Below, in pieces: positions 9,205-54,074 of a DNA stretch of 54,917 nt. The number at the start of each line of letters is the position of its first letter. Positions within the stretch are counted from its first letter, which is position 1. Both the position numbers and the translations under genes were made by a program. This DNA comes from Crystallibacter permensis (GTDB lineage: Bacteria > Actinomycetota > Actinomycetes > Actinomycetales > Micrococcaceae): positions 1 through 54,917 of the forward strand of contig NZ_JAODLR010000028.1 of assembly GCF_025960875.1 (NCBI RefSeq). The letters are read 5' to 3'. The notes under the pieces are model-generated. The model searched no databases. It saw only the letters and a list, made by a program, of their open reading frames with translations, and was not told where the DNA came from.

Positions 9205-12128
9205 CCGCCCCCAGTGCCAACCAGTCCCAGCGGCTCGCCGTTGAAGCGACAGCCGCTGCGCGGATCGACCGCACCAAGCCCCTGGCCTTTACGCTCGACG
9301 GCGAGGCATTCAGCGGCTTCGCCGGTGACACGCTTGCCTCGGCCATGCTTGCTGCCGGCAAGGTCACGGTAGGGAATTCGCTCTACCTCGACCGTCCCCG
9401 CGGCATCCTCTCCGCCGGTGTGGAAGAAGCCAATGCCCTGGTCAAGATCAGCGCGCGCTTCGAAAGCCACGTGGACGAGTCCATGCTGCCGGCAACCACC
9501 GTGGAGCTGACGGACGGCATGGACGCCAAGCTGCTTCAGGGCCTGGGCCAGCTGGACCCGCGCACGGACAAGGCCGTGTACGACCGCAAGTACGTGCACA
9601 CCGACGTCCTGGTTGTCGGCGCCGGCCCCGCCGGCTTGGCCGCAGCCCGCGAAGCTGCCAAGAGCGGTGCCCGCGTCATCCTGATGGATGAGCAGCCCGA
9701 AGCCGGCGGCTCGCTGCTGTCCGGCCGGGATGAAGTCATCGACGGCCTGCCCGCCCAGGACTGGATCGCCCGGACCACCGCCGAACTGGCTGCCGCCGAG
9801 GAAGTAACCTTCCTGTCGCGCACCACCGCGTTCGGCAGCTACGACAGCAACTTCATCGTCGCTGTGCAGCGCCGTACCGACCACCTGACCGGCGAACTCG
9901 GTTCCGGCGTTTCCCGCGAACGCATCTGGCATGTCCGCGCCAAGCAGGTGGTGCTCGCCACCGGTGCGCACGAGCGCCCGATCGTCTTCGCGAACAATGA
10001 CCGCCCCGGCATCATGCTGGCCTCCGCCGTGCGCAGCTACCTGAACCGCTACGCCGTGGCGGCCGGACACAAGGTTGTCGTCGCCACCACCAATGACTCC
10101 GCCTACAAGCTGGTTGCGGATCTGCAGGCGGCCGGCGTCGGAATTGCGGCCGTGGTCGACTCCCGGGCTGAGGTCAGCGGCGACGCGGCCGACGCCTTGG
10201 CAGCGGCGGGCATCCGCCTCATCACCGGCAGCGCCGTGGTGGACACTGAAGGCAACAACGACGGCGGAAGGATCAGCGCCGTCGTCGTGAGCGGTCTGGA
10301 CGCCGACGGGCAGCTGACCGGTGAGCCGGAAACGATCGAAACGGATCTGCTGGCAGTCTCCGGTGGCTGGACCCCGGTGGTCCATCTGCACAGCCAGCGT
10401 GAGCGCCAGCTGAAGTGGGATGAGGCGCTCGCCGCGTTCGTCCCCGGCCGCGAGGTCAAGGACCAGCAGACCGCAGGTGCCCTCAACGGCAACCTGGATC
10501 TGGCCGGCTGCCTTGAGGAGGGAGCCCAGGCCGGTGCTGAGGCCGCCACCCGGGCAGGCTTCCGCGCCAACGCGCTGGTTCCCGCCGCCGCACCCGAAAC
10601 CCTCGCCCCGAGCCGCCCGCTGTGGCTGGTTCCGGGACTTGAGGGTGAGGTCGCAGACTGGAAGACCCACTTTGTGGACTTCCAGCGCGATCAGACCGTG
10701 GCCGACGTGCTGCGGTCCACCGGTGCCGGCATGCGCAGCGTGGAGCACGTGAAGCGCTACACCTCGATCAGCACCGCCAATGACCAGGGCAAGACCTCCG
10801 GCATCAACGCCATCGGTGTTATCGCGGCGGCGCTGAACAACACCGACGTCGGCAGCATCGGCACCACCGCCTACCGCGCCCCTTACACGCCGGTAGCCTT
10901 CACGGCACTGGCCGGGCGCCAGCGCGGGGAGCTCTTCGACCCGGCGCGGCTGACCTCGATCCACCCGTGGCATGTGGCCCACGGTGCCTTGTTCGAGGAT
11001 GTCGGACAGTGGAAGCGCCCCTGGTACTTCCCGCTGCCGGGCGAGGACATGGACACGGCCGTGCTGCGCGAATGCGCCGCCGTGCGTGAGAGCGTCGGCT
11101 TCATGGACGCCACCACGCTTGGCAAGATCGAAATCCGCGGCAAGGACGCCGGTGAGTTCCTCAACCGGATGTACACCAACGCGTTCAAGAAGCTCAAGCC
11201 GGGGCTGGGCCGCTACGGCCTGATGTGCACTCCTGACGGCATGATTTTCGACGACGGCGTGACCCTGCGCCTCGACGAGGACCGCTACTTCATGACCACC
11301 ACCACCGGCGGAGCCGCTAAGGTGCTGGACTGGCTGGAGGAATGGCTGCAGACCGAATGGCCGGAACTGGACGTGGTCTGCAACTCCGTCACGGAGCAGT
11401 ACACCACCGTTGCCGTGGTTGGACCGAAGTCCCGCGCCGTGATCGCCAAGCTGGCGCCGGAGCTGGACCTGGACAACGACGCCTTCCCGTTCATGGCCTT
11501 CAAGGAAACCACGCTCGCGTCCGGTATTCCGGCACGCATCTGCCGGATCTCGTTCTCCGGCGAGCTGGCGTTCGAGATCAATGTGTCCTCCTGGTACGGA
11601 CTCAAGGTCTGGGAAGACGTGGCCGAAGCCGGTGCGGAGTTCAACATCACCCCGTACGGCACCGAAACCATGCACGTGCTCCGCGCCGAAAAGGGCTTCA
11701 TCATCGTCGGCCAGGACACGGACGGCACCGTCACCCCGCAGGACGCGGGGATGGAATGGGTGGTCTCCAAGGTCAAGGACTTCGTGGGCAAGCGCTCCTA
11801 CTCGCGGGTGGACAACCTGCGCGAGGACCGCAAGCAGCTGGTCGGCGTCCTGCCGGTGGACAAGTCGTTCCGCCTGGAAGAGGGTGCGCAGCTGGTCAAC
11901 CAGGGCACCCGCATCGCCCCGGCCGAAGCGCCGGTGCCGATGGAAGGCCACGTGACCTCCAGCTACCACAGCGCCGCGCTGGGCCGTAGCTTCGGCCTGG
12001 CCATGATCAAGAATGGCCGCAACCGCATCGGTGAGACGCTGCAGGCCCCGCTCGGCGGGCAGCTTGTGGACGTCGTCATCGCAGAACCCGTACTTTACGA
12101 TCCCGAAGGGAGCCGTCGTGATGGCTGA
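9201..12128 (+). CDS. soxA: Sarcosine oxidase, alpha subunit
   Basis: A 975-residue subunit. It has an N-terminal ferredoxin-like Sox domain (about 20-100), an NAD-binding disulfide-oxidoreductase-like fold ([19 protein letters not shown] near residue 140) and a C-terminal aminomethyltransferase (GCV_T-like) half from about residue 580. The C-terminal half binds tetrahydrofolate and captures the imine from sarcosine as 5,10-methylene-THF. GTG start with an AAAGGAGG site inside the end of soxD. The coding region contains one copy of the AACGACGGCGG word (10257). It ends by overlapping soxG by eight bases. Confidence 0.96.
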
Positions 12129-12750
12129 ACAGGTATTGACCGATATTGCAGCGCTGCGCCGCAGTCCACTGGCACATCTGGAAGAGGCAATCCGTGAAGG
12201 TGCCGTGTCCGGCGAACGGGGCGTGAGCCTGCGCGAAATCCCGTTCCTGAATATGGTTGGCCTGCGGGCCGAGCCGGGTTCGGCCGGCGCCAAGGCACTT
12301 GAGGCAGCCCTGGGCCTGCCGCTGCCGGCCGGCCATGGACAGGTGACGGGCTCCGTTGACGGAACCGCCCTGTTGTGGCTGGGCCCGGACGAGTTCCTGC
12401 TGGTCGGCCCGGAAGGCTCCAACGCCACCACGGCGCTGACCGAAGCCCTCGGGGCCGAGCCGGGCGCCGTCGTCGATCTCTCGGCGAACCGCACCACGGT
12501 GGAACTGACCGGACCCTCGGCACGCGCCGTGCTGGAGAAGGGCTGCCACGTGGACCTGCACCCGCGGGCCTTCACACCCGGCACCGCGGTCATGACCCAG
12601 CTCGGCCCGGTGCCGGTGCTGCTGTGGCAAACGGCTGAGGAAGGCGGGTCGCAGACCTACCGGATCCTGCCGCGCGCCTCCTTCGCGGACTACACCGCCC
12701 GCTGGCTGCTGGACGCCATGACGGAGTTCGCTTCGCCCGAGGTACCGTAA
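12121..12750 (+). CDS. soxG: Sarcosine oxidase, gamma subunit
   Basis: A 209-residue subunit with a truncated GCV_T-like fold that caps the complex. It shows the [18 protein letters not shown] entry and the [13 protein letters not shown] motif of SoxG proteins. I place the start at the ATG at 12121, inside the last codons of soxA and behind an AAGGGAG site. A GTG directly before it (12118) is possible. The stop overlaps the sdaA ATG as TAATG. Confidence 0.94.
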
Positions 12751-14150
12751 TGGCGCTGAGCGCACTTGATCTGTTTTCCGTTGGCATCGGCCCCTCCTCA
12801 TCGCACACGGTGGGGCCGATGCGGGCGGCCAAGCGGTTCACCGACGGCTTGGTCCGGGACGGGCAACTGACCGCAGTTGCCCGCGTCCGGGCCGAGCTGT
12901 TCGGCTCCCTGGGTGCCACCGGCTTCGGCCACGGCTCGGACAAGGCCGTGGTGCTGGGCCTGCAGGGCCAGGACCCGGAGACGGTGGACACGGATACGGC
13001 CGACGCCCAGGTCCGGGACGCCGTCGCGGCACGGAAGCTGGCGCTGGCAGGGGAGCACCCGGTGTCCTTCGACTGGGACGCCGACGTGATCCTGCACCGG
13101 CGCAAGGCCTTGCCGGCACACCCGAACGGCATGACCTTCTTCGCTTACGACGACGCCGGAGACCTGCTGCGCGAACGCACCTACTACTCGGTAGGTGGCG
13201 GCTTCGTGGTGGACGAGGATGCGGCCGGAGCGGACCGGATCGTCGAAGACACCACCGCCCTGCCCTACCCGTTCACCACCGGTGCCCAGTTGCTGGCGCA
13301 CTGCCGGACCGAAGGCCTCTCCATCGCCCAGGTCATGCTCGCCAACGAGCTCACCTGGCGCAGCGAAACCGAGCTCCGCTCACAGCTGCTGCACATCTGG
13401 GCGGTCATGCAACAGTGCGTGGAAAACGGCTGTACCCGCACGGAGGAGAGGTTGCCCGGGGGACTGAAGGTCCGCCGTCGTGCTCCTGAATTGCGGCGCA
13501 AGCTGCGCCAGACCGAGGCAGCGGCCGCCACCAGCGGCAGCCCGCAGTCGGATCCGCTCTGGGCCATGGAATGGGTCAATCTTTACGCGCTGGCGGTCAA
13601 TGAAGAAAACGCCTCCGGCGGCAGGATTGTCACCGCGCCGACCAACGGGGCGGCCGGCATCATCCCGGCCGTGCTGCACTTCTATACCCGGTTTGTCCCG
13701 GGTGCGGATGGCGACGGCGTGGTCGAGTTCCTGCTCACGGCGGCGGCAGTGGGTATCCTCTTTAAGGAGAACGCGTCCATCTCCGGTGCAGAAGTCGGTT
13801 GCCAGGGCGAAGTGGGTTCGGCCTGCTCCATGGCCGCCGGCGCGCTGTGTGCGGTGCTGGGCGGCACACCGGAACAGGTTGAAAACGCTGCCGAAGTCGG
13901 CATCGAGCACAACCTGGGGCTGACCTGTGATCCTGTAGGAGGGCTGGTGCAGATTCCCTGCATCGAGCGCAACGCGATCGCCAGCGTCAAGGCGATCAAC
14001 GCCGCGCGGCTCTGCCTGCAGGGGGACGGTGAGCACAAGGTCTCTCTGGATCAGGCCATCAAAACGATGCGCGAGACCGGCAAGGATATGAAGATCAAGT
14101 ACAAGGAGACCTCCCGTGGTGGCTTGGCCGTCAACGTCATTGAGTGCTGA
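12750..14150 (+). CDS. sdaA: L-serine ammonia-lyase (iron-sulfur type)
   Basis: A 466-residue single-chain L-serine dehydratase that converts serine to pyruvate and ammonia. The beta domain opens with [20 protein letters not shown]. The alpha domain contains [17 protein letters not shown] and [19 protein letters not shown], which supply the conserved cysteines for a 4Fe-4S cluster. It is fused to the sarcosine operon by a TAATG overlap with soxG. Here it completes the route sarcosine, glycine plus C1, serine, pyruvate. The iron-sulfur cluster of this family is oxygen-sensitive, which is notable beside an H2O2-producing oxidase. Confidence 0.95.
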
Positions 14151-15033
14151 ACAACAACCCGCTCCGGGGGCCGAGGTGGCGAGTGAGCTGGTGCTGACCC
14201 TGGACTGCCGGGAGGCCCCGGGCATCGTGCACGCGGTCAGCGGAGTGCTGCTGGAACACGGCTGCAACATCGTCGAACTCAAGCAGTTCGACGACAGGCG
14301 CCTGGGCCACTTCTTCATGCGGGTCCATGTGGCCTCCTCGACCGGGGAGGCGCTGGACGAGGAAGCGCTGCGCAAGGACTTCGGGCCGGTGGCCGAACGT
14401 TTCGGGATGAGCTGGGAGCTCGACCGGCACGGGGCCAAGCGGCGCGTGATGATCATGGTTTCCAAGTTCGGGCACTGCCTGAACGACCTGCTGTTCCGTG
14501 CACGCACGGGGGAGCTGCCGGTGGAGATTGTCGCCGTGGTGTCCAACCACCGCGACCACCAGCGGCTGGTGGAGTGGCACGGCATCCCGTTCTTCCACAT
14601 CCCGGTCACCCCGGACACCAAGCCCGAGGCCGAGGCGAAGCTGCTGGAACTGGTGGACCGTTTCGAGGTGGATCTGGTGGTCCTGGCCCGCTACATGCAG
14701 GTGCTCAGCGACTCGCTGGCCACCCGGATGGCCGGCCGCGTGATCAACATCCACCACTCCTTCCTGCCCAGCTTCAAGGGGGCCAAGCCGTACCACCAGG
14801 CGTACGAGCGCGGCGTGAAAACCGTGGGCGCCACCGCGCACTACGTCAACAGCGAGCTGGATGAGGGCCCGATCATCGCCCAGCAGCTGGTGGACGTGGA
14901 CCACACCTTCGGCCCCGAGGACCTGGTTGCGGCCGGGCGGGATACCGAATGCAAGGCGCTCTCCAACGCCGTGAAGTGGCACTGCGAAGGCCGCGTCATC
15001 CTGCACGGAAACCGGACCGTAGTGCTGCGCTAA
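14116..15033 (+). CDS. purU: Formyltetrahydrofolate deformylase
   Basis: A 305-residue hydrolase that releases formate and THF from 10-formyl-THF. An N-terminal ACT domain (about 22-100) precedes a formyltransferase fold with [19 protein letters not shown] and the downstream GATAHYV-LDEGPII catalytic loop. I use the GTG at 14116 because AAGGAG lies seven bases before it; this makes a 35-base overlap with sdaA. A TTG at 14140 or GTG at 14176 would shorten the head. As the last gene of the operon it relieves trapping of folate as C1 adducts. FolD, needed to link methylene- to formyl-THF, is not in the window. Confidence 0.93.
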
Positions 15034-15070
15034 TCTGACACGGCGCAGCCTGCGGCACCGCTGGCTAACA

Positions 15071-15118
15071 ACGACGGCGGCTCTCACCTTTTCAGGTGAG
15101 GGTCGCCGTCGCTGTTTA
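15071..15118 (+). terminator. Intrinsic terminator of the sarcosine operon
   Basis: A long hairpin pairs GACGGCG (15073-15079) with CGCCGTC, with an inner CTCACCT-TTTC-AGGTGAG helix, followed by GCTGTTT. It starts 38 bases after the purU stop. The left arm includes a copy of the AACGACGGCGG word. Confidence 0.75.
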
Positions 15119-15188: not shown

Positions 15189-15194
15189 GGTTCG

Positions 15195-20974: not shown

Positions 20975-22498
20975 TCAGCGGTTGCGGACCTCTTCCGGGC
21001 CTTCCACCGGCACTTCCTCCGAAACGGCGCCGGCGACCCGCAGATCCCAGGCCTCTCGCACGGCCGGGTCGGTCGGCTTGGTTGCCAGGGACACCACTAC
21101 GTAGGCGACCAGCGAGGCGATCAATCCATAGTAGATCGGCTCGTTGGCGTAAATGCCGTCGTACTGGTTTTCCGCGTTGACCTCAAGGATGATCATGGTG
21201 GTCAGGGTGACCACGCTGCCGGCGGCCATGGACGCCGCGGCGCCGAGACCGGTTCCGCGCTTCCACGCCAGGCCGCCGAGGATGGCAATGAGCAATCCGC
21301 CGACCAGGATGTCGTAGGCGATGGTCAGTGCGGCGACCACGTCCTGGACCAGGATGGCCAGCACAATCGCCACGACGCCGAGACCGAGGACGTACCAGCG
21401 GCTGCCCTGCACATCGTGCCCCGGGTTTTCGCCGTGCTCGTGGTGGGCCGGCCTACCGAACCAGGAGCGGACAAAGGGCACCACGTCGGCCTTGGCCACG
21501 GTGGCGGCGGCAATCAGCGTGCCGGAGGCAGTGGACATCATCGCCGCTACAGCGGCGGCCAGCACAATACCGCCGACGCCGATGGGCAGCAGGTTCATCG
21601 CGACGTCCGCATAGACATCGTCCTGGTTCTCCAGGCCCGGAATAACGACGGCGGCCGCCATTCCGATCAGGGCGCCGGCCGCACCGTAGAAGATGCAGTA
21701 AATGCCGGCGGTCGCGCCGCCCCAGCGGGCAACTTCCGGAGACCGGGCGGTGAAAACGCGCTGCCAGATGTCCTGCCCGATCAGCAGGCCCAGGGTGTAG
21801 ACCACGAAGTACGTGATGATGGTTTGCGCGCCGATGCCGCCGAGGTCGAAGAAGGAGGCGTCAACGCGCTCGCGGATCCCGTCCAGTCCGCCGGCGGCGT
21901 TCCAGGTAAACGGCAGCATGAGCAGGAAGACGCCGATGGTCTTGATGACAAACTGTGCCATGTCCGCCAGCGTGATGGACCACATGCCGCCGATGGTGGA
22001 GTAGATCAGCACAATGGCGCCGCCTACGGTGATGGCCAGCCAGCGTTCCCAACCGAAGAGCACCACCAGGATGGTCGCGTAGGCGCCTGTCGACGTGGCG
22101 CACAGCATCAGGGTGTAGGCGAGCATGACGATGCCCGAAACCTTGGTGGCGCTGACGCCGTACCGCAGGGTCAGCATCTGTGCCACCGTGTAGATTTTCA
22201 ATTTCTGCAAGGTGGGCGCGAAGAGCAGGCTCAGCAGCAGCACGCCGGTGCCGATGGCCACCACCAGCCACATGCCGGACAGTCCGAACGTGTAGCCAAG
22301 GCCAACGCCGCCAACGGTGGAGGCACCGCCAAGAACGACGGCGGCCATAGTGCCGGTGTAGAGCAGGCCGCCGAGTCGGCGGCCGGCCACGAGATAATCG
22401 CTATTGTTCTTGGTGCGGGACTTGCCCCACCAGCCGAATAGCAGCATTGCGGCCAAGTAGGCGACCACAATGATGACGTTGATGATTTGACCATCCAT
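20975..22498 (-). CDS. Sodium:solute symporter (SSS family)
   Basis: A 507-residue, roughly 13-helix symporter. The family pattern GKSRTKNNSDYLVAGRRLGG after helix 1, the helix-2 GGASTVGGVGLGYTFGLSG and the YSTIGGMWSITLADMAQF region are clear. I start at the ATG at 22498 (AGGAG site upstream) rather than the ATG at 22552, which would add 18 unlikely residues and overlap the operator at 22535. It is divergent from an XRE-cupin regulator and probably imports the substrate of the ureohydrolase/decarboxylase pair next door. The exact solute is not readable. Confidence 0.88.
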   Translation of the reverse strand: MDGQIINVIIVVAYLAAMLLFGWWGKSRTKNNSDYLVAGRRLGGLLYTGTMAAVVLGGASTVGGVGLGYTFGLSGMWLVVAIGTGVLLLSLLFAPTLQKLKIYTVAQMLTLRYGVSATKVSGIVMLAYTLMLCATSTGAYATILVVLFGWERWLAITVGGAIVLIYSTIGGMWSITLADMAQFVIKTIGVFLLMLPFTWNAAGGLDGIRERVDASFFDLGGIGAQTIITYFVVYTLGLLIGQDIWQRVFTARSPEVARWGGATAGIYCIFYGAAGALIGMAAAVVIPGLENQDDVYADVAMNLLPIGVGGIVLAAAVAAMMSTASGTLIAAATVAKADVVPFVRSWFGRPAHHEHGENPGHDVQGSRWYVLGLGVVAIVLAILVQDVVAALTIAYDILVGGLLIAILGGLAWKRGTGLGAAASMAAGSVVTLTTMIILEVNAENQYDGIYANEPIYYGLIASLVAYVVVSLATKPTDPAVREAWDLRVAGAVSEEVPVEGPEEVRNR

Positions 22499-23367: not shown

Positions 23368-24489
23368 ATGGAAGAACTCCGCGTCGAGGCCAACGGCAAG
23401 CTCGGCCCCATCGATTCATCACGGATTCCGCGCTTTGCCGGCGCCGCCACCTACGCCCGCCTCCCACGGCTGGACCAAGTGGCCCACGCCGATGTCGCCG
23501 TCGTCGGTGTTCCCTTTGACTCCGGGGTTTCCTACCGTCCGGGTGCACGCTTCGGCGCCAACCACGTCCGTGAAGCTTCGCGGTTGCTGCGCCCGTACAA
23601 CCCGGCCTGGGACGTGAGCCCGTTCGAGAGCCTGCAGGCCGCCGACGCCGGCGACATGGCGGTCAACCCGTTCAACATCAACGAGGCGATCGAGACCATC
23701 CAGCAGAACGCGCTGGATCTGACCGAAAACGGCACCAAGCTCATCACACTCGGCGGGGACCACACCATCGCCCTGCCGCTGCTGCGCGCCGCCGCGGAGC
23801 GCGCCGGCCAGCCGGTGGCCATGCTGCACTTCGACGCGCACCTGGACACCTGGGACACCTACTTCGGCGCCGAGTACACGCACGGCACGCCGTTCCGCCG
23901 CGCGGTAGAGGAGGGCATCCTGGATACGGAGGCCATCTCGCACGTGGGCACCCGCGGCCCGCTCTACGGCAAGAAGGACCTGGACGATGACCACCGCTTC
24001 GGCTTCGGCATCGTGACCAGTTCCGACGTCTACTACCAGGGCGTCCGCGAAGTGGTGGCCAAGCTGCGCGACCGGATCGGCGACCGCCCTCTCTACATTT
24101 CGGTCGATATCGACGTGCTGGATCCGGCCCACGCGCCCGGCACCGGAACACCGGAGGCCGGCGGCATGACCAGCCGCGAACTGCTGGAGATCATCCGCGG
24201 CTTCCGCGGCATGAACCTCATCGGCGCCGACGTCGTGGAAGTGTCGCCGGCTTACGACCATGCGGAAATCACCGGCGTCGCCGCCAGCCATGTGGCCTAC
24301 GATCTGTTGACGCTGATGGCCGCGAACGCCGCGGACAGCCAGAACAACGACGGCGGTGCATCCGTCGGCCGCGGTGCTTCCGCTGCGCGCGGGGGAGCGG
24401 ACCAGAGCGGCGCCGAGGCGCAGGGCGGGACGCCGCCGCACGGGGATCCGTTGGCCGCCAACGCCCTGCGCGGCGGGGAAGGCTCCTGA
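23368..24489 (+). CDS. Agmatinase-family ureohydrolase (possibly guanidinobutyrase)
   Basis: A 373-residue binuclear manganese hydrolase of the arginase/agmatinase family that splits urea from a guanidino compound. The metal motifs GGDHT, DAHLDTW and [19 protein letters not shown] are all present. The ATG at 23368 has a clear AGGAG site, so the upstream in-frame ATGs are discarded. The last ~45 residues form a Gly/Ala/Ser-rich low-complexity tail not needed for the fold. Two bases separate it from a TPP decarboxylase gene. Agmatine, 4-guanidinobutyrate or 3-guanidinopropionate are all possible substrates. The decarboxylase neighbour favours guanidinobutyrate from arginine transamination. Confidence 0.86.
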
Positions 24490-28076: not shown

Positions 28077-29366
28077 GTGAAACGACACAATGTAATGCGC
28101 GCTACGGCGGTGGCAGCCCTGCTCTCCCTCGGGCTCACGGCTTGCGGCAGCGGCGGCGGGGGCAGCGAAGAAGCCTCCAGCACCGTGCGGGTAACCCTGG
28201 CCAACCATGTGTGGACAGACATCATCAAGGAAGCCATTCCCGAATTCGAAGAGGAGACCGGCCTCACCGTCCAGCTCACCCAGTTAGGCGAAGACCAGCT
28301 GTCCGACCAGTACAACGTGAAGCTCAACGCCGGTACGGACGAGATCGACGTGATGATGTACCGGCCGCTGCAGGAGGGCAAGCTCTTCGCGCAGAACGGC
28401 TACCTGGCCGATCTCTCGGAGCGGGTCGAGGGCAACGCGGAGTGGGACTGGTCCGACTTCCAGTCCGGTCCGGTGGAGGCCACCACCTTCGAGGACAAGG
28501 TGGTGGGCGTGCCGCTGATCACCGAGCGCGAGGTGCTCTACTACCGCAAGGACCTGCTGGAAAAGGCCGGCCTTGAGGTGCCCAAGACCCTCGAAGAGCT
28601 GGAGGCCGCGGCCAAGCAGATCAAGGAAGAGAACCCGGACACGGCGGGCTTCGTTGCGCGCACCGGCCGTTCGGCCGCGGTCACGCAGTTCTCCTCGTAC
28701 CTGTACTCCTTCGGCGGGGACTTTATTGACGATTCCGGCAAGTCGGCCATCGGCACTCCCGAGGCCAAGGAGGCTTACGACTATTACGGCCGGATGATCC
28801 GCGAGTACGGGCCGGAGAACGTCAGCACGGACATGAGCTGGCCCGAAGCCATGGCCATCTTCACTCAGGGCGGGGCCGCGTTCTATACCGAGGCGGACAG
28901 CCTCTACAAGAACGCCACCGATCCTGCAGATTCGAAGGTTGCGGAAACGGTCGGCTTCGCGCCGATGCCCGAGGGCCCGGCAGGCTCCAAGCCGTACAAC
29001 GTCCCCTCCTGGGGCCTGGCGATCAACGAGGCCTCGGCCAACCAGGACAACGCGTGGAAGTTCATTGAGTGGGCCACCAGCAAGGAAAAGACGCTCGAGG
29101 TCCAGAAGGCCGGCGTGCCCGGACCGCGTTCATCCGTCTGGGAGGACCCGGAAGGCATTTCCACCTACCCGAAGGATCTCGCGGAGGCCATTGCGGTCAG
29201 CGCCGAGAACGGGGTTGGCTATGACCGCCCGCTGGTGGTCTCGGTAGCCGAGGCCCGCGAAATTGTCGGCGATCCGATCGTTGCCGCCATTACCGGCAAG
29301 GATGCGGCCAAGGCCGCGGAAGCCGCCAACACGTCGTTCGAGGCCTTCCTCGAAGACGAAAAGTAG
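28077..29366 (+). CDS. ABC transporter solute-binding lipoprotein, sugar-acid type
   Basis: A 429-residue family 1 extracellular binding protein. A lipoprotein signal peptide ends in LGLTACG, with Cys23 as the lipidated residue, followed by a Gly/Ser linker. The mature part shows the typical PDVMMYRP-like region (DEIDVMMYRPLQEGKLF) and WSGP-like hinge segments. It captures a carbohydrate or sugar acid outside the cell and delivers it to the two permeases downstream. The following dgo enzymes point to D-galactonate. GTG start with a CGGAG site. No ATPase gene is in the cluster, so a shared MsiK-type ATPase is presumably used. Confidence 0.9.
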   Translation: MKRHNVMRATAVAALLSLGLTACGSGGGGSEEASSTVRVTLANHVWTDIIKEAIPEFEEETGLTVQLTQLGEDQLSDQYNVKLNAGTDEIDVMMYRPLQEGKLFAQNGYLADLSERVEGNAEWDWSDFQSGPVEATTFEDKVVGVPLITEREVLYYRKDLLEKAGLEVPKTLEELEAAAKQIKEENPDTAGFVARTGRSAAVTQFSSYLYSFGGDFIDDSGKSAIGTPEAKEAYDYYGRMIREYGPENVSTDMSWPEAMAIFTQGGAAFYTEADSLYKNATDPADSKVAETVGFAPMPEGPAGSKPYNVPSWGLAINEASANQDNAWKFIEWATSKEKTLEVQKAGVPGPRSSVWEDPEGISTYPKDLAEAIAVSAENGVGYDRPLVVSVAEAREIVGDPIVAAITGKDAAKAAEAANTSFEAFLEDEK

Positions 29367-29383: not shown

Positions 29384-29420
29384 GGAGAACGACGGCGGCA
29401 ACGCACCGCCGTCGTTCTCC
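29384..29420 (+). terminator. 15-bp intercistronic hairpin after the binding-protein gene
   Basis: GGAGAACGACGGCGG (29384-29398), a CAACGCA loop and the exact complement (29406-29420) form a very stable stem without a T-run. It lies between the binding protein and its permeases. This placement commonly serves to keep the binding protein in excess by protecting the upstream mRNA. Confidence 0.65.
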
Positions 29421-33141: not shown

Positions 33142-34095
33142 GTGGAGCCTGTTGATGTCCTGACCTTCGGCGAGTCCATGGGCTCGTTCCGCCACGCCGG
33201 CCTGCTGCGGATGGGCGGCAGTGCGCAGCTGTGCCTGGCCGGCGCGGAATCCAATGTGGCCATCGGGCTGTCCCGGCTGGGCCACACCACCCGCTGGGCC
33301 GGGCGGTTGGGGCGGGACGAGATCGGCGCCTTCGCGCTGCGGCAGCTGCGGGCCGAGGGCGTGCTGACGGATGCCGTCAGCCACGACGACCACCGTCCTA
33401 CGGGATTGATGCTGCTGGAGCAGCGGACCGCGGATCTGGCCCGGGTGCAGTACTACCGGGCGGGCTCTGCCGGTTCCGCCTTGACCATTGACCTGGTCCG
33501 TCCCGCCGTGGCGGCCGGCGCCCGGGTCCTCCATCTGACCGGCATTACCCCTGCATTGTCGGCCTCTGCCGCTGAGGCAGTGCTGTGGGCGGCCCGGGCC
33601 GCGCGCGATGCCGGCATCCTGGTCTCCTTCGACGTCAACTTCCGCGCCAAACTCTGGACGGCAGAGCAAGCAGCCGCAACGCTGCCCGCCATCGCCGCGT
33701 GCGCCGACGTCGTTATTGCCTCGGAGGACGAGCTGGCGCTCGCGGTCCCCGAAGCCCACGACGGCGAGGCCGCGGCTGCCGCCGCACTGGCCACTCTGGG
33801 CGTGGGCCAAGTGGTCATCAAACGCGGGGCCGACGGGGCCACGGGCTGGATCGATGGGAAGCCGCATCACGTGGCGGCCCACCAGGTCGTCGTGCGCGAC
33901 ACCGTGGGCGCGGGTGATGCCTTCACCGCTGGGTACCTGTCCGGTCTGTTGGATGGGCTCGACATCCAGGCGCGGCTGGAGCGCGGAGCCATTCTGGGCG
34001 CGTTCGCCGTCGGCTATCCGGGGGACTGGGAGGCGCTGCCCACGCGCGGGGAACTGCGGCTGTGGGAACAGCAGACCGGCACTACGGTGAGGTAG
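33142..34095 (+). CDS. PfkB-family sugar-acid kinase, probable KDGal kinase
   Basis: A 317-residue ribokinase-fold kinase starting at the GTG two bases after the aldolase stop. It has the N-terminal LTFGESMGSFRH strand, GAESNVAIGLSRLG, and the C-terminal PfkB signature with catalytic Asp in DTVGAGDAFTAGYL (about residues 253-266). In this operon it should phosphorylate 2-dehydro-3-deoxygalactonate at O6, the step done in E. coli by the unrelated DgoK. A KDG kinase with broader specificity is equally possible. Confidence 0.88.
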   Translation: MEPVDVLTFGESMGSFRHAGLLRMGGSAQLCLAGAESNVAIGLSRLGHTTRWAGRLGRDEIGAFALRQLRAEGVLTDAVSHDDHRPTGLMLLEQRTADLARVQYYRAGSAGSALTIDLVRPAVAAGARVLHLTGITPALSASAAEAVLWAARAARDAGILVSFDVNFRAKLWTAEQAAATLPAIAACADVVIASEDELALAVPEAHDGEAAAAAALATLGVGQVVIKRGADGATGWIDGKPHHVAAHQVVVRDTVGAGDAFTAGYLSGLLDGLDIQARLERGAILGAFAVGYPGDWEALPTRGELRLWEQQTGTTVR

Positions 34096-37097: not shown

Positions 37098-38315
37098 TCA
37101 GTTCTTGACGTAGCCGTTCGGGTTCAGGACGTACTTGGTGGCGGCGCCGGCGTCGAACTCGGCGTAGCCCTTGGGCGCGTCTTCGAGGGGGATGGCCTTG
37201 GCGTTGACGGCCTTGGCGATCTGGACCTTGTCGTGCAGGATCGCCATCATCAGCTGCCGGTTGTACTTCATGACCGGGCACTGGCCGGTGGTGAAGGACA
37301 GCGACTTGGCCCAGCCGGTGCCGAGACTGATGGAGAGCGAACCGTGCTGCGCGGCTTCATCCGCCGCCCCGGGATCGCCGGTGACATAGAGCCCGGGGAT
37401 GCCCAGCGCGCCGCCGGCGGCGGTGATGTCCATCAACGAGTTCAACACGGTGGCCGGCGCCTCGTGCGAGGAGTCCTTGCCATGGCCGCGGGCTTCGAAA
37501 CCAACGGCATCGATGCCGCAGTCCACTTCGGGCACGCCCAGGAGCTGCTCGATCTGGTCCTTCGGATCGCCCTTGGACACGTCCACGGTTTCACAGCCGA
37601 AGCTGCGTGCCTGCGCGAGCCTTTGTTCGTTGAGGTCCCCCACAATAACGACGGCGGCGCCGAGTAATTGCGCGCCGACCGCGGCAGCAAGGCCAACCGG
37701 CCCGGCACCGGCCACATACACGGTGGAGCCGACCCCGACGCCGGCGGTGACGGCGCCGTGGAATCCGGTGGGCAGGATGTCGGAGAGCATGGTCAGGTCC
37801 ATGATCTTCTCCAAGGCCTGGTCGCGGTCCGGGAACTTCAGCAGGTTCCAGTCCGCGTAGGGGACCATGACGTACTCGGCCTGGCCGCCGACCCAGCCGC
37901 CCATATCGACGTAGCCGTAGGCGCTGCCGGGACGATCCGGGTTCACGTTCAGGCAGATGCCGGTCTTGCGTTCCTTGCAGTTGCGGCAGCGGCCGCAGGA
38001 AATGTTGAACGGGACTGAGACGATGTCGCCGGTCTTGATGAATTCGACGTCGGGTCCGCATTCGATGACCTCGCCGGTGATTTCGTGTCCCAGCACCAGA
38101 TCGGTCGGGGCAGTGGTGCGGCCGCGGACCATGTGCTGGTCCGAGCCGCAGATGTTGGTGGTAACTGTTCGCAGAATGACGCCGTGGGGAACCTTGCGGC
38201 CAATGTTGGCCGGATTGATCCCCGGGGCGTCCCTGAGGTCGAAGGTGGGGTAGTCGGTGTCGATGACTTCGACTTTCCCTGGTCCTTTGTAGGCAACGGC
38301 TCTGTTTCCTGACAC
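37098..38315 (-). CDS. fdhA: Glutathione-independent formaldehyde dehydrogenase
   Basis: A 405-residue zinc-dependent medium-chain dehydrogenase of the Pseudomonas putida FdhA type, which oxidises formaldehyde with NAD+ without a thiol cofactor. TTNICGSDQHMVRGR holds the catalytic Cys, GHEITGEVIECG follows, and CGRCRNCKERKTGIC carries the structural zinc cysteines. The Rossmann motif is VAGAGPVGLAAAVGAQLLGA. I place the start at the GTG at 38315 with AAGGAG upstream; longer frames lack a ribosome site. It is between a HbpS/GlcG-like gene and the LigM-like gene, so the operon is built around C1 release. Confidence 0.92.
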   Translation of the reverse strand: MSGNRAVAYKGPGKVEVIDTDYPTFDLRDAPGINPANIGRKVPHGVILRTVTTNICGSDQHMVRGRTTAPTDLVLGHEITGEVIECGPDVEFIKTGDIVSVPFNISCGRCRNCKERKTGICLNVNPDRPGSAYGYVDMGGWVGGQAEYVMVPYADWNLLKFPDRDQALEKIMDLTMLSDILPTGFHGAVTAGVGVGSTVYVAGAGPVGLAAAVGAQLLGAAVVIVGDLNEQRLAQARSFGCETVDVSKGDPKDQIEQLLGVPEVDCGIDAVGFEARGHGKDSSHEAPATVLNSLMDITAAGGALGIPGLYVTGDPGAADEAAQHGSLSISLGTGWAKSLSFTTGQCPVMKYNRQLMMAILHDKVQIAKAVNAKAIPLEDAPKGYAEFDAGAATKYVLNPNGYVKN

Positions 38316-38409
38316 GGGGCATGACTCCTTATTTCTGGACCGCACGGTGATAGCCATCACGCTAGCGGACTTCACTCACTATGGCTATAGGTACTTAGGA
38401 ACGCAGCTG

Positions 38410-47678: not shown

Positions 47679-48136
47679 GGGAGCAACCCGGTCTGCTGCT
47701 TGATACGGATGTGGTGACGGAGGTGCGTAGCGCCGAGCCGCACGCCGCCGTCGTCGATTTCCTGCAGCAGCGCAAACACCTGCGCATCTTCATCTCCGCG
47801 CTGACCGTTGGGGAACTGCGTGCCGCGCATGCCCAAACGGGAACTGAGTCAAACAACGACGACGGTCGCTGGCTTGCGGAGCTCACCAAGCGTTTTGAAG
47901 GCTTCATCCTGCCGGTGGATCTGAAGGTCGCGACGGTCTGGGGACCGATGTCCAGCCGCCCGGATGTTCCGGCCGTGGAGTCGCTCATTGCGGCCACGGC
48001 CGTCCGGTACTGCCTGACGGTGGTGTCCCGCAACGTCGCCGGCTACAGCAAACTCGCTGTGCCAGCCATCGATCCATGGCAAGTGGGCCGGTATGCCGTG
48101 GCGCAGGAGCCGGCACCGGATCATCGGCCCGGGTAG
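47675..48136 (+). CDS. vapC: VapC/FitB-type PIN-domain toxin, possibly inactive
   Basis: A 153-residue PIN-domain RNase homologue starting at a GTG that overlaps the antitoxin stop. LLLDTDVVTEVR gives the first acidic residue (Asp10) and SALTVGELRAA the second (Glu47). At the third position, where relatives have the Asp of vaDaliAAtA, this protein has Glu102 (VESLIAATA). At the fourth, where TRNvrDF is usual, it has Gly123 (SRNVAGY). Loss of one metal-binding carboxylate and change of another suggest weak or no RNase activity. It ends 52 bases before a LysR gene. Confidence 0.82.
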   Translation: MREQPGLLLDTDVVTEVRSAEPHAAVVDFLQQRKHLRIFISALTVGELRAAHAQTGTESNNDDGRWLAELTKRFEGFILPVDLKVATVWGPMSSRPDVPAVESLIAATAVRYCLTVVSRNVAGYSKLAVPAIDPWQVGRYAVAQEPAPDHRPG

Positions 48137-49204: not shown

Positions 49205-50545
49205 TTATTTCATTTCACTGCTCAGGTCCATGTTCTTGCCTTCCTTCGTGGCCAGCACGCAGGCGGCCGCCACGACGAAGGACAACATCCAGACCAGGCC
49301 GACCAGCCACAGTTCCCCGCCGGCGAGGAGCACCAGTCCGGAGGCGATCATCGGGGTGAAGCCGGCGCCGAGGGTCGAGGAAGACTGGTAGGTCAGTGAG
49401 GCACCCGTGTAGCGCATCCGGGTGGGGAAGAGCTCGGCCACGAAGGCACCGAACGGCCCGAAGATCACACCCTGGATGATGCCGTTGGCCAGGAACAGGC
49501 CGATGGCGAAGCCCCACAGCGTGTCGGTCTGCAGTAGCCACAGGATGGGGTAGGCCAGGACGGCTCCGGCGATCATGCCGGCCAGCATGACCGGCTTGCG
49601 GCCGTACTTATCGCTCAGGCGGGCCGCGAACCAGATCGCCACAATGGTCAGGGTGGCGCCGACGGCCTTGATGTTGAGGACGGAGGTGGTGTCCACGCCG
49701 GCCTCGATGATGTAGGAGACCGCCCAGACCGTCATCAGGCCCTGCACCGTGTAGGAGCTCATGCCGGCCAGCACACCCAGAACCAGGTTCTTCGGGTACT
49801 TGGTGACGACCTCGACAAACGGGATCTTCTTCTTTTCCGCGGTGGCTTCAAGTTCCAGGAACAGCGGCGTTTCAGCGACCTTGAGCCGGATGACCAGGCC
49901 CACGGCGATCAGCACGAGGCTCAGCAGGAACGGGATCCGCCAGCCCCAGCTCATGAACGCTTCCTCGGGCAGGGTGGAGAAGGCCGAAACGGTCAGCGTG
50001 GCCAGCACGGCACCTGCGGGACCGCCCATGTTGGCGAAGCTGGCGGCAAAGCCGCGGCGCTTGGCCGGGGCATGCTCGAGGGCAACCAGCATGGCGCCGC
50101 CCCATTCACCGCCGACGGCGAGTCCCTGGACAAGCCGCAGCACGACCAGCAGGATGGGCGCCGCCATGCCGATCTGCGCCGTGGTGGGCAGCAGGCCGAT
50201 CAGCGTAGTGCCCGCACCCATCAGTGTCATCGACACGATGAGTACGGTCTTGCGGCCGATCCGGTCGCCGAAGTGGCCGAAGATCGCCCCGCCCAGCGGA
50301 CGCGCAACGTACCCGACGGCGAGGGTGCCGAAGGACATGAACAGCCCGACGGCGGGGGAGACGTTGGCGAAGAACACGTGGTTGAAGACGATGGACGCTG
50401 CCATCGCGTACAAAATGAAGTCGTAGAACTCGATGGCGCTGCCGATGAAGCTGGAGGCCAGAATGCGGCGCATCTGCTTCGTGTTCAGGCTCTCCGAGAT
50501 GGAGGATGCCTGGGGCTGCGGGGGAGTCATGGTGTTAGCACTCAT
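49205..50545 (-). CDS. MFS transporter, MHS type (second copy)
   Basis: A 446-residue transporter of the metabolite:H+ symporter group. ASSFIGSAIEFYDFILYAMAA begins helix 1, GHFGDRIGRKTVL is the loop motif and ARLSDKYGRKPVM its second-half repeat. The start at 50545 lies inside the last codons of the metallo-hydrolase gene (11-base overlap). An ATG at 50530 is an alternative. The tight coupling suggests the carrier imports the compound that the hydrolase opens. It is only distantly similar to the MHS gene at 136-1536. Confidence 0.88.
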   Translation of the reverse strand: MSANTMTPPQPQASSISESLNTKQMRRILASSFIGSAIEFYDFILYAMAASIVFNHVFFANVSPAVGLFMSFGTLAVGYVARPLGGAIFGHFGDRIGRKTVLIVSMTLMGAGTTLIGLLPTTAQIGMAAPILLVVLRLVQGLAVGGEWGGAMLVALEHAPAKRRGFAASFANMGGPAGAVLATLTVSAFSTLPEEAFMSWGWRIPFLLSLVLIAVGLVIRLKVAETPLFLELEATAEKKKIPFVEVVTKYPKNLVLGVLAGMSSYTVQGLMTVWAVSYIIEAGVDTTSVLNIKAVGATLTIVAIWFAARLSDKYGRKPVMLAGMIAGAVLAYPILWLLQTDTLWGFAIGLFLANGIIQGVIFGPFGAFVAELFPTRMRYTGASLTYQSSSTLGAGFTPMIASGLVLLAGGELWLVGLVWMLSFVVAAACVLATKEGKNMDLSSEMK

Positions 50546-51599
50546 TGGACAGTAGCCATTTCTTCCAGAATACGGTCAGTGGAGTCAGTACGAAGGGGAT
50601 AACGTCCAGATCGTTCGGGACGTAGAAGCGGCCGTCGAAGTCGGCGCCGGCGCTTTCCCATACGGACATGGGAGTGGTGCCTGGTACTAAATGGTGCAGG
50701 GCCAGAGCTTTGGCCCCTGCACGGTTGGCCAGTGCGACTGCTTCAGCGGCACTGGTGTGCGATTTCCTGTGGTGGTCGATAGAGGCCTGGCCGGTGGAAT
50801 TCGCCGCCGAGCCATACGCGCGCTGCACCCAGTCGAAATCGATCGCCTCATGGAGCAGCAGATCGGTGTCCGCTGCGAGTCGGACAAGGTTCTCGCACGG
50901 TGCGGTGTCGCCGGAAATGGTGACGGAGCCGTGCTCGGTGTCGAACCGGAAAGCGAAGGCGGGGGCGACCGGCGGATGCTTCACCAACGTGGCCGTCACG
51001 GTCACGTTTTCGTCCCGGTAGATCTCGAAGCCCTCCATGGCGGGAGTGGGATTCTGGTTCGGGTGGTAACCACTCGCCGTCGGAATTTGGATGTCTTCGG
51101 GCACGAAGTAGTCGAAGGGCGAAGGCCGCAGCGCGTCCAGAATGCGGTCGTTCAGGTCCGTGGCGTAGGCGGCCATCAGGTGGGTGAACATCGACTTGGT
51201 GCCGGGCGTCGGGTTCTCCGGGAAGACCGGCGAAGGCGCGACGGCGGCACGGGACGAAACCGGGGGAAGCTCGCCGCGGTCGCCGGGGCCCATGATCTTG
51301 ATCTGGTGCTGGTTCTCCTTCAGCGTGAACATGCCGAAGATGGCCAGGCTGCCCAGATCGATCGTGTGGTCCGAATGCAGGTGCGTGATGAAGATGCCGC
51401 GCAGCGAGTTGACCGGAAGCCCGGCCAGCATGAGCTGGCGTCCCACGCCGTGCCCGGCGTCCACCAGGTAAGTGCTGTCGCCAACAACGACGGCGGTGGC
51501 GATCCCCGAGCGCTTCCCGGCATTCTCGCCGGTCCACCAGCGTGGACCGCCGGCAGTGCCTAGAGTGACGACGCGTGGCGTCAGATCGGTACCGGTCAT
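50535..51599 (-). CDS. MBL-fold metallo-hydrolase, RNase Z-like group
   Basis: A 354-residue metallo-beta-lactamase-fold hydrolase. YLVDAGHGVGRQLMLAG, the zinc motif THLHSDHTIDL (HxHxDH), the long insertion at about 110-190, TISGDTAPCENL and the final ALHHLVPG histidine are present. This group includes arylsulfatase-like, lactonase and phosphodiesterase members with an RNase Z-like layout, so the reaction is open. AAGGAG before the ATG. It is coupled to the MHS transporter gene. Confidence 0.86.
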   Translation of the reverse strand: MTGTDLTPRVVTLGTAGGPRWWTGENAGKRSGIATAVVVGDSTYLVDAGHGVGRQLMLAGLPVNSLRGIFITHLHSDHTIDLGSLAIFGMFTLKENQHQIKIMGPGDRGELPPVSSRAAVAPSPVFPENPTPGTKSMFTHLMAAYATDLNDRILDALRPSPFDYFVPEDIQIPTASGYHPNQNPTPAMEGFEIYRDENVTVTATLVKHPPVAPAFAFRFDTEHGSVTISGDTAPCENLVRLAADTDLLLHEAIDFDWVQRAYGSAANSTGQASIDHHRKSHTSAAEAVALANRAGAKALALHHLVPGTTPMSVWESAGADFDGRFYVPNDLDVIPFVLTPLTVFWKKWLLSNEC

Positions 51600-51663
51600 G
51601 TTGCAGAACTCCTTGTGTTGCCTATCACTTCCTATCGATACTCCGGTATCTCCGAAGACCTGT

Positions 51664-51697
51664 AAAACTGTTTAAACCGGAGATCTAAAACAGTTTT
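51664..51697. promoter_or_regulatory. Inverted repeat upstream of the metallo-hydrolase operon
   Basis: AAAACTGTTT (51664-51673) and AAACAGTTTT (51688-51697) are exact complements 14 bases apart, in the A+T-rich part of the gap about 65-100 bases before the hydrolase start. A smaller GTTTAAAC palindrome lies within. It is a good operator candidate. Confidence 0.5.
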
Positions 51698-51754
51698 GCT
51701 TATGTGGTGCGGGTTGGCCGGTGATGCAGCTGGCGAGCGTGCCGTGCAGGCGGA

Positions 51755-52594
51755 CTAGCCCATGGTGATGAGGCCGACGGCAGCGCCGGCGCTGACCAGC
51801 CCGACGAGCTGCCGTCCGGTCAGCCGCTCCCTCAACACGGTGATGCCCAGGACCACGGGGAGCACCGGATAGAGGGAGGACAACACCACCGCGATGCTCA
51901 TCAACTGCAGCTGGGCAGCGAGCATGTAAAGCGTGAGGGCCAGCGCCGCCATGCCTCCAATCAGTGCGGCAGCCAGGACCGTCCGCGCCCCGACGCCGCG
52001 CAGCTTGGCGGCCGACGGCCGGGCGAGCGGCAGGATGGCCAGCGCGGCGGCGACGCGGCCGGCAACAATGGGCCAGAGCCCTGCTTCCGCCCCCGCCTGG
52101 GCCAGGGCGATGTACTGCACGGCGATGCCAATGCTCGAGAACAGGGCGTCGAGCGTTCCGGCGGCTCGCGGGCCCTGTGCACCGTTCCTGGTGACGGAGA
52201 TCAGCCACAGTGCCGGGATGGCCAAAGCGATTCCCAGCCAGGCCGGAACAGTGGGGCGGTCACCCAGGACCGTTACGCCGATGAGGACGGGAAGAGCGGT
52301 GCCGCCAACTGCTACGAACGGAACGACGACGCTCATGCTGCCGTGGCTGAGGCCGCGGTAAAGGAACACCATGCCCATACCCGTCCCGATGCCGGACACC
52401 GCGCCCCAGGCAAGGTCCGCCGGCTCAACGGACGGAGCCGGGAAGAACGGCGCGGCAGCCAGACTGAGCAGCAGGGCGCCCAGCTGGCCGATGAGGGCGA
52501 TGGTTGTCGGATCGGCACGTCGCGACAACAAACCGCCGACGAAGTCCGCGACGCCATAAAAGAACGCCGAACCAAGAGCGAACAGAATTGCCAC
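51755..52594 (-). CDS. EamA/DMT-family transporter
   Basis: A 279-residue membrane protein with ten hydrophobic segments in two EamA repeats of about 135 residues. LGSAFFYGVADFVGGLLSRR starts the first, and SLYPVLPVVLGITVLRERLT in the second is the classic EamA end-of-repeat pattern. Family members export amino acids or other small metabolites. GTG start with a poor ribosome site. Substrate unknown. Confidence 0.87.
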   Translation of the reverse strand: MAILFALGSAFFYGVADFVGGLLSRRADPTTIALIGQLGALLLSLAAAPFFPAPSVEPADLAWGAVSGIGTGMGMVFLYRGLSHGSMSVVVPFVAVGGTALPVLIGVTVLGDRPTVPAWLGIALAIPALWLISVTRNGAQGPRAAGTLDALFSSIGIAVQYIALAQAGAEAGLWPIVAGRVAAALAILPLARPSAAKLRGVGARTVLAAALIGGMAALALTLYMLAAQLQLMSIAVVLSSLYPVLPVVLGITVLRERLTGRQLVGLVSAGAAVGLITMG

Positions 52595-52622
52595 GGCTCA
52601 GGCTGCCCATGCCGAATACTGC

Positions 52623-52793
52623 ATGCCTCATGCAACCATCAGCGGCGGCCCGTGGCAACGGCCCGTGGCTGACGCCAACTTGTTGCTGCTGACGGGATGG
52701 GACCAGCTAGGCCTGACCCTGACGGTTCTGGGCCTGCTGCTGCTGACCTTCTGGTCCGGGTACTGGACCGGACGGCGCCGTCGTCGTTCTTGA
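52623..52793 (+). CDS. 56-residue single-pass membrane protein
   Basis: A short frame with one strong hydrophobic helix (LTLTVLGLLLLTFWSGYW) immediately followed by the positive anchor GRRRRRS and the stop. This inside-positive design and its Leu-rich helix are those of real small membrane proteins rather than a chance ORF. The ribosome site is poor. A GTG at 52665 would give 42 residues and keep the helix. No family recognised. Confidence 0.5.
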   Translation: MPHATISGGPWQRPVADANLLLLTGWDQLGLTLTVLGLLLLTFWSGYWTGRRRRRS

Positions 52794-52862
52794 AAAGTCC
52801 TTGGAAACTGGGCCGGGTTCTGTTCCTCTACCGCGGATCATCCTTTATTCCTACACTGCAGT

Positions 52863-54074
52863 ATGAGCATAGATGTTGAGCAGCTGTACCGGGACCTGCA
52901 CGCCCACCCCGAGCTCTCCTTCCAGGAGCACCGGACCGCCGGGATCGTGGCTGAGCATCTTCACGCCCTGGGATTTACCGTGCACCCCGGGATAGGAGTA
53001 ACCGGTGTGGTCGGCATCCTCAGCAACGGTCCGGGCGGGACTGTCCTGCTGCGCGCGGACATGGACGGCCTGCCCGTAGAAGAGGCAACGGGACTGGACT
53101 ATGCCAGCACCGCCCGTGGTGTTGACCAGGACGGCAAGGACGTACCGGTCATGCATGCCTGCGGCCACGACGTCCACGTCGCCTGTCTGATCGGGGCGCT
53201 GGAAAGGCTCGTGGACGAGCGGGCAAACTGGCAAGGAACGGTCGTCGCGGTATTCCAACCCGCGGAAGAGTCGGGCGGCGGAGCTCAGGCCATGGTCGAC
53301 GCTGGCCTATTCGACCTTGTTCCTCACCCCGATGTGGTCCTCGGGCAGCACGTCGCACCGTTTCCGGCGGGTTGGATCGGCATCAGACCCGGCGTCGCCA
53401 TGGCATCAGCGGATTCGATCAACATTACGATGTTCGGTGCGGGCGGCCACGGTTCCAGGCCGGAAACAACCGTCGATCCGGTGGTCATGGCAGCTGCCAC
53501 AACCATGCGGCTCCAAGGGATCGTCTCGCGGGAGCTTGCCGCTGGCGATTCGGCCGTTCTGACCGTCGGGCAGCTTCACGCCGGAACCAAGAACAACATC
53601 ATTCCCGCGGAAGCCACCTTGGGGATCAGCCTGCGCACCTTTGATGAGCCGGTGCGGACGAAGATGGTGAACTCCATCGAGCGGATCGTCCGAGGTGAAG
53701 CATCGGTATCGGGTGCCGTCAAGGAACCGCTGTTCAGCTACGACGAACACTTCCCGCTGACCCGCAACGACGAACAGGCAACCATACGAACGACGGCGGC
53801 ACTGGGCAACGTCTTCGGCGAGCAGATTATTGATCCCGGCCCGATATCCGGAAGCGAAGACGTCGGAGTGCTTGCGACTGCTGCCGGGGTGCCGCTTGTC
53901 TTCTGGTTCCTTGGCGGTGCCGACCCATCCCTGGCCGAGGCCTTGGCGTCTACCGGCAGGCTGCCTGAAGACATTCCCTCGAACCACTCGCCACATTTCG
54001 CGCCTCTCATCCGGCCGACTCTCGGCCTGGGGATTGACGCGCTGGCTGCAGCGGCACGCGAATGGCTGGATTAG
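52863..54074 (+). CDS. M20-family amidohydrolase (hippurate/IAA-conjugate hydrolase type)
   Basis: A 403-residue metal-dependent amidohydrolase. LHAHPELSFQEHRTAGIVAE, LLRADMDGLPVEE, HACGHDVHVACLIGA and AVFQPAEESGGGAQAMV supply the two-metal site. A dimerisation domain (about 185-300) contains GHGSRPE, and the late SGSEDVGVL and SNHSPHFAP complete the family. It should hydrolyse an N-acyl amino acid or a similar conjugate. The ATG has no ribosome site. A TACACT (-10-like) at 52852-52857 would start the mRNA at or near the ATG, so it may be leaderless. It carries a copy of AACGACGGCGG (53789). Confidence 0.9.
   Translation: MSIDVEQLYRDLHAHPELSFQEHRTAGIVAEHLHALGFTVHPGIGVTGVVGILSNGPGGTVLLRADMDGLPVEEATGLDYASTARGVDQDGKDVPVMHACGHDVHVACLIGALERLVDERANWQGTVVAVFQPAEESGGGAQAMVDAGLFDLVPHPDVVLGQHVAPFPAGWIGIRPGVAMASADSINITMFGAGGHGSRPETTVDPVVMAAATTMRLQGIVSRELAAGDSAVLTVGQLHAGTKNNIIPAEATLGISLRTFDEPVRTKMVNSIERIVRGEASVSGAVKEPLFSYDEHFPLTRNDEQATIRTTAALGNVFGEQIIDPGPISGSEDVGVLATAAGVPLVFWFLGGADPSLAEALASTGRLPEDIPSNHSPHFAPLIRPTLGLGIDALAAAAREWLD

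Follow-up and report, generated by a model that had tools for sequence, protein, structure and literature searches.

Contig NZ_JAODLR010000028.1 of the actinobacterium Crystallibacter permensis, a stretch of 54,917 nt that we analysed whole and call the window, is contig 28 of a 66-contig, 4.95 Mb draft genome and carries ten copies of the 11-mer AACGACGGCGG. We examined this word genome wide and among relatives, and found that it belongs to a family of over-represented sequences with the consensus AABAACGACGNCGG. The over-representation is real and lies at the DNA level, and it is best explained if some DNA-binding step recognises the word by its sequence and if copies have been spread by selection or drive acting on the DNA itself. 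Judging from one transporter gene, whose closest named matches are in Arthrobacter sp. SF27 (99%), A. mobilis (86%) and A. hankyongi (85%), the organism most likely falls within Arthrobacter in the wide sense, in the Micrococcaceae. As to which step this is, comparison with known systems leads us to propose, tentatively, that the word looks like a DNA-uptake sequence and may work like one. We mean by this a resemblance in properties, not membership of a known class, and we hold it as a plausible reading that falls short of a probable one.

An earlier reading of the window (the sequence-only reading) had placed the 11-mer on the forward strand at 10257, 15070, 21644, 22334, 24346, 29388, 37647, 51486 and 53789 and on the reverse strand at 29406-29416, and all ten coordinates were correct. 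Its expectation of well under one copy by chance also held, since 100 dinucleotide shuffles of the window gave a mean of 0.08 copies and never more than 1. The longer form that it proposed stood in part: seven of the ten copies carry an AAN prefix, and over a sample of the genome the variable base of the prefix is best given as B (any base but A). This sample comprised 800 kb of the genome plus the window (855 kb). One word family headed the list of over-represented words at every length from 8 to 12 under an order-4 Markov model, and alignment of its copies gave the 14-nt consensus. Single-letter changes at the eight positions ACGACG.CG lowered the enrichment of the 11-mer from 29-fold to 0-2.9-fold against an order-3 expectation. 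The internal base of ACGACG-N-CG was free (A 32-fold, T 16-fold, C 5-fold) and the first and last bases of the 11-mer were partly free. Such a one-letter profile looks like that of a protein recognition site and not like an effect of composition.

In a GC-rich genome, codon usage, codon-pair preference or mutational bias could produce a word of this kind as a side effect. Genes were called with a simple in-house caller rather than a standard program (82-90% of bases coding; single starts may be wrong), and 50 of the 71 exact 11-mers in the sample lay in predicted coding sequence, where copies favoured three of the six frames. In addition, 8-letter core words showed a 2- to 3-fold enrichment in each of the five other genomes that were profiled, which fits a general bias. 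Against this explanation, the 50 coding copies compare with 10.4 ± 2.4 (maximum 19) in 100 within-gene synonymous-codon shuffles and with 8.8 ± 2.7 (maximum 14) in 40 shuffles that keep neighbouring bases, confirming the earlier claim that protein coding does not account for the word. The 11-mer was also 2.4 times denser between genes than within them (1.67 versus 0.69 per 10 kb, intergenic counts including copies that touch a gene edge), its enrichment was lost on single changes, and the 14-mer is scarce in genomes of similar GC content (33 copies in G017, GC 0.659; 24 in G013, GC 0.646). Together with the third-position conservation described below, these results make a by-product of bias very unlikely.

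The 9:1 strand split of the 11-mer in the window (two-sided binomial P = 0.02, in one contig among 66) had been read as a property of the word. In the same window the split was 8:2 for the 14-mer and 15:11 for the abundant 9-mer core, and the whole genome contained 161 forward and 178 reverse copies of the 11-mer, a total of 339, compared with 23 (12 forward, 11 reverse) for the reversed word. The strands were roughly equal in nine other genomes of the genus as well, the widest 14-mer split being 74:103 (G005). Along contigs 1 and 2 of the C. permensis genome, strand order showed no runs (runs tests, z 0 to 1.55), and copies were not regularly spaced (coefficient of variation 1.17). With respect to replication, 90 copies of the 14-mer pointed with it and 91 against it in G002, among 181 of 283 copies listed, that is, those up to 2.59 Mb of a 4.76 Mb contig whose origin, located from dnaA, is at 1.55 Mb. 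G007, whose genome is a single contig (dnaA at 0.92 Mb), gave 93 core 9-mers with replication and 88 against it in 20 samples of 20 kb. The bias in the window is local and not a property of the word. Copy density seemed uneven along both contigs: the first 2.59 Mb of G002 C1 held those 181 of its 283 14-mers, and ten samples from 1.1-3.1 Mb of G007 C1 held 114 core 9-mers versus 67 in the other ten.

The sequence-only reading had compared the word with strand-polar motifs and with Chi. FtsK-orienting polar sequences (KOPS) and the SpoIIIE recognition sequences (SRS), like the octamers called architecture imparting sequences (AIMS), are short dispersed words, and KOPS are defined by their polarity. 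AIMS are defined by a leading-strand bias that rises toward the terminus, according to excerpts of PMC5993296. Because the strands are equal genome wide in C. permensis and in its nine relatives, without runs and without replication bias in G002 or G007, neither KOPS nor AIMS apply here. A Chi site of the RecBCD type does not apply either, because RecC was absent from all 25 genomes of the family searched; a Chi-like signal for another enzyme is considered below.

A collinear alignment of C. permensis with G007 covered 382 kb of 495 kb at 91.9% identity, and 116 of 147 core 9-mers in it were identical. Control words matched in composition, a few of which overlap the motif family, were identical in 54.6% of 8112 occurrences. 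On contig 1, third codon positions within ACGACGNCG were unchanged in 461 of 485 cases, where the same codons at other places predict 410.2 (z 6.5), and the first two positions in 485 of 498 versus 475.1 (z 2.1). In the more distant G003 (about 77% identical), 7 of 19 core 9-mers were unchanged compared with 226 of 1895 controls. Of the core 9-mers on contig 1, 123 lay in the 301 kb that has a counterpart in G007 and 21 in the 98 kb that has none, a higher density in shared sequence to which the lower GC content of the unshared part (0.628) may contribute; the 14-mer, with 19 copies versus 4, was too rare to tell. Judged from these alignments, selection or drive maintains the core.

Copies outside genes were concentrated next to stop codons. 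Of the intergenic core copies, 33 had a stop codon upstream, and 26 of these (79%) lay within 60 nt of it, versus 28% of random intergenic positions. Eleven of these 26 formed a hairpin arm. Words matched in GC content from that zone did so in 442 of 4491 cases (odds ratio 6.7, P = 1.7e-5), and core copies in coding sequence in 9 of 287; the 11 copies make up eight hairpins, three of which hold two copies each. Pairs of 9-mers within 60 bases were convergent in five cases, direct in one and divergent in two, and G017 showed two close convergent pairs among the copies listed. The two intergenic hairpins that had been noticed in the window both fold strongly (Table 1).

These associations raise the question of whether the word is a spread transcription terminator or mRNA 3′-end element. 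Read on the opposite strand, as CCGNCGTCGTTVTT, the word looks like the latter half of a GC-rich stem that runs into a T-rich tail, and the proximity to stops, the hairpin arms and the stability of both window hairpins agree with such a role. The location of most exact 11-mers inside genes and the rarity of hairpin arms among coding copies argue against it, as does the balance of sense and antisense copies (27:23 for the 11-mer, 155:132 for the 9-mer). A scan of the window for classical terminators listed neither hairpin (15067-15116, 29385-29419). We saw no clear pattern of gene-end bias inside genes (9-mer quintiles 26, 28, 37, 29, 35 in sense and 35, 29, 18, 23, 27 in antisense) and no preference for tandem, head-to-head or tail-to-tail gene arrangements, copies following the amount of intergenic DNA. 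A terminator function as the reason for the spread is, on balance, hard to credit.

The full word is restricted to one clade. The 14-mer was amplified in eight of ten genomes of the genus (70-283 copies) and scarce in the other two, G001 and G009 (8 and 12 copies), while 235 other genomes of the family had at most 60 copies. In 296 genomes of the class, of which 293 do not belong to the family, copy numbers of the 11-mer peaked at 339 in C. permensis and did not exceed 60 outside the family. The core reaches further: CGACGGCG was the top 8-mer in G001, G009 and G017 and the second in G013, all four without the prefix. By these counts an older core signal is present in the family, and the prefix and the strong amplification belong to one clade. 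Within another genus of the family (g45), G206 and G118 contained 60 and 48 14-mers and the other 12 genomes searched 2-10; the 11-mer differed less (75 and 99 in G206 and G118 versus 41 in G134). A second, weaker amplification is possible in these two genomes.

The word could also be bound by a chromosome-organising protein, or by some other abundant DNA-binding protein whose many sites are each weak. This would account for several of these observations, namely the sharp one-letter profile, the presence of copies in coding and intergenic DNA on both strands and the enrichment of the core in four prefix-free genomes that were sampled. Such a protein would not predict hairpin arms directly past stop codons, and we consider it an unlikely explanation, though a better one than codon bias or a terminator.

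On a par with it stands the idea that an AdnAB-type helicase-nuclease reads the word as a Chi-like recombination signal, no Chi being known in this lineage. The C. permensis genome contains two adjacent PDDEXK_1 nuclease genes (open frames of 1157 and 1091 aa), and a similar pair occurs in all ten genomes of the genus. They are putative AdnA/AdnB genes, a naming that does not tell them apart from AddAB. A second pair of PDDEXK_1 genes is found in G001 C81, G009 C1 and G003 C1, and a single gene in G005 C274; this distribution does not track the word. Like Chi of RecBCD and AddAB, the word is genome wide, is conserved and has a G-rich end. The conservation of its core, and the higher density of the core in shared sequence, speak for this explanation. 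Chi is 5-8 bases long, and that of E. coli is biased to the leading strand. The word shows no orientation to replication and, with eight required bases plus a prefix, is long for a Chi. Hairpin pairs past stop codons are not expected of a Chi, and the nuclease pair is also present in G001 and G009, which lack the amplified 14-mer. How AdnAB handles Chi-like recognition is stated to be unclear in excerpts of PMC13309787, and before the study in PMC8022716 only five species had a known Chi-like motif, according to its abstract. Altogether we rate this explanation as improbable, the Chi suggestion of the sequence-only reading surviving only in this form.

The proposal of an uptake-type sequence draws, in addition, on the gene content of these bacteria. 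Both comEA (SLBB and helix-hairpin-helix domains) and comEC are present in C. permensis, and ComEC was found in 38 of 39 genomes searched, including this one. Among secretion ATPases (T2SSE), two score classes occurred in all ten genomes of the genus and a third ATPase exceeded the cut-off in exactly eight, those with the amplified word; the classes were set by score alone, without a tree. In C. permensis the third ATPase lies in a Tad pilus cluster with two T2SSF proteins, TadE, Tad (TadE/G-like) and two small proteins without a Pfam match, one of them pilin-like by eye. The co-occurrence of third ATPase and word is suggestive. Micrococcus luteus belongs to the same family as C. permensis. 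Flp/Tad pili have been reported in the transformation apparatus of that species (PMC4322843, in excerpt).

The comparison with known uptake systems is closest for the DNA uptake sequence (DUS) of the Neisseriaceae, which is read by the pilin ComP. According to excerpts of PMC2346458, PMC2397512, PMC12616744 and PMC3630211, uptake sequences have no general orientation, often form inverted pairs that act as terminators, are conserved above their surroundings and are commonest in the permissive parts of the core genome. Like DUS, as portrayed in excerpts of PMC3630211, PMC2397512 and PMC2346458, the word is the top over-represented word of its genome, lacks a general orientation, forms inverted pairs after genes, has a core conserved above its flanks and denser in shared sequence, and combines a shared core with a lineage-specific flank. 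Unlike DUS, it is found in a Gram-positive actinobacterium and has a free internal position. The hexamer GCCGTC, the reverse complement of the core, also starts the 10-base Neisseria DUS GCCGTCTGAA (PMC2397512, in excerpt), which is probably a coincidence. With the uptake signal sequence (USS) of the Pasteurellaceae the word shares an asymmetric build in which an A-rich side adjoins a GC-rich core, many intragenic copies and the use of both strands; it differs in sequence, in that the USS hosts are Gram-negative and in lacking the gene-end bias described for USS.

We infer that these bacteria may be competent, that uptake would be the selected step and that the Tad pilus could take part. In a competent cell, a DNA receptor on the Tad/Flp pilus or beside ComEA would prefer DNA bearing AABAACGACGNCGG. 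The preferred DNA would enter through ComEC and recombine, so that fragments from kin that carry the word would be imported more often. The word would then accumulate on both strands in permissive places of the core genome and be restored from kin DNA after mutation, and past stop codons two facing copies could double as hairpins. In its most specific version, the proposal would make AABAACGACGNCGG the first uptake sequence of a Gram-positive bacterium, belonging to Tad-pilus competence in an Arthrobacter clade, of an origin independent of Neisseria and Haemophilus, with a preference for kin DNA, a core that relatives share and a prefix that varies like a dialect from one sister clade to another. 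We regard this version as possible, and as less likely than the general resemblance. Searches of the literature on uptake, Actinobacteria, Arthrobacter competence and Chi, in which subscription journals were mostly outside reach, found no uptake word for any Gram-positive bacterium.

Several results weigh against an uptake-type sequence. The requirement for an uptake sequence is described as unique to Neisseria and Pasteurellaceae, two Gram-negative families, in excerpts of PMC3630211, which also give about 1900 DUS copies in 2.2-2.3 Mb and many single-mismatch copies. The C. permensis genome (4.95 Mb) has 267 copies of the full 14-mer, or one per 19 kb, roughly a fifteenth of the DUS density, and one-letter variants at the eight required positions showed no excess, the only excess being at the three tolerant ones. 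Competence and a receptor for the word, on which the proposal depends, are hypothetical in these species. DUS-flanking regions in Neisseria are more divergent than average (PMC2397512, in excerpt), whereas regions around the word were not (0.916 versus 0.9185 in the G007 comparison). The A-rich prefix was weakly kept, with a base identity of 0.924 for AABAACGACG versus 0.911 for its flanks; as raw counts without control words, 23 of 37 copies of this 10-mer and 13 of 22 14-mers were exact in G007. The core 9-mer was equally dense between genes (4.05 per 10 kb) and within them (3.93), and pairs of the 7-mer AACGACG within 60 bases had no convergent excess (3 convergent, 5 direct, 6 divergent). 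Since CGACGGCG ranks high in genomes without the prefix, some of the signal predates the genus and could have a different cause. Outside the genus the amplification is not approached in any genome, though ComEC is nearly universal. The co-occurrence with the third ATPase goes no further than suggestive because it comes from ten genomes, of which the two negatives may share one ancestor or loss; a confounder is their higher GC content (0.686 in G001 and 0.679 in G009, sampled parts, versus 0.641-0.651 in C. permensis and G007). Four of these results (prefix, equal core density, 7-mer pairs and GC content of the two poor genomes) were too small to change our assessment.

The positions of the word in the window and of the Tad cluster are listed in Table 1. 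By Pfam, the genes that host the copies are of the sarcosine oxidase alpha, sodium:solute symporter, arginase, GroES-like alcohol-dehydrogenase, metallo-beta-lactamase-fold and M20 peptidase types, broadly as the sequence-only reading had named them; its fdhA is plausible for a gene that is itself of the GroES-like alcohol-dehydrogenase type.

Table 1. Copies of the word and its hairpins in the window, and the Tad pilus cluster elsewhere in the genome.
Feature	Position	Strand	Context
Full 14-mer AACAACGACGGCGG	10254-10267	+	Inside sarcosine oxidase alpha-type gene 9201-12128 (+)
Intergenic hairpin	15067-15116	.	14-mer 15067-15080 (+) pairs with two-mismatch copy 15103-15116 (-); -41.9 kcal/mol, z -7.07; 33 nt past stop codon of gene 14176-15033
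AATAACGACGGCGG	21641-21654	+	Inside sodium:solute symporter gene 20975-22498 (-)
AAGAACGACGGCGG	22331-22344	+	Inside sodium:solute symporter gene 20975-22498 (-)
AACAACGACGGCGG	24343-24356	+	Inside arginase-family gene 23368-24489 (+)
Hairpin, perfect inverted 11-mer pair (29388-29398 + / 29406-29416 -)	29385-29419	.	-32.7 kcal/mol, z -6.52; between solute-binding-protein gene (stop at 29366) and ABC permease gene (29445)
AATAACGACGTCGG, 14-mer consensus copy, T at free position	33704-33717	-	
AATAACGACGGCGG	37644-37657	+	Inside alcohol-dehydrogenase-type gene 37098-38375 (-)
AACAACGACGACGG, 14-mer consensus copy, A at free position	47852-47865	+	
AACAACGACGGCGG	51483-51496	+	Inside metallo-beta-lactamase-fold gene 50535-51599 (-)
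AAGAACGACGACGG, 14-mer consensus copy	52778-52791	-	
11-mer without AAB prefix	53789-53799	+	Inside M20 peptidase gene 52863-54074 (+)
Tad pilus cluster	G000:C6:131117-135824 (6117-10824 of the piece G000:C6:125001-145000)		Adjoins prfB-, ftsE-, ftsX- and smpB-like genes (by eye)

If the word works as an uptake signal, it would be unusual for a Gram-positive bacterium. It would then represent a separate case among soil actinobacteria, in which close relatives do without the full word and one pilus ATPase, and the question of why self-specific uptake evolved would become testable. If it is instead an AdnAB-type or a chromosome-organising signal, it would be a candidate for the Chi-like step of AdnAB.

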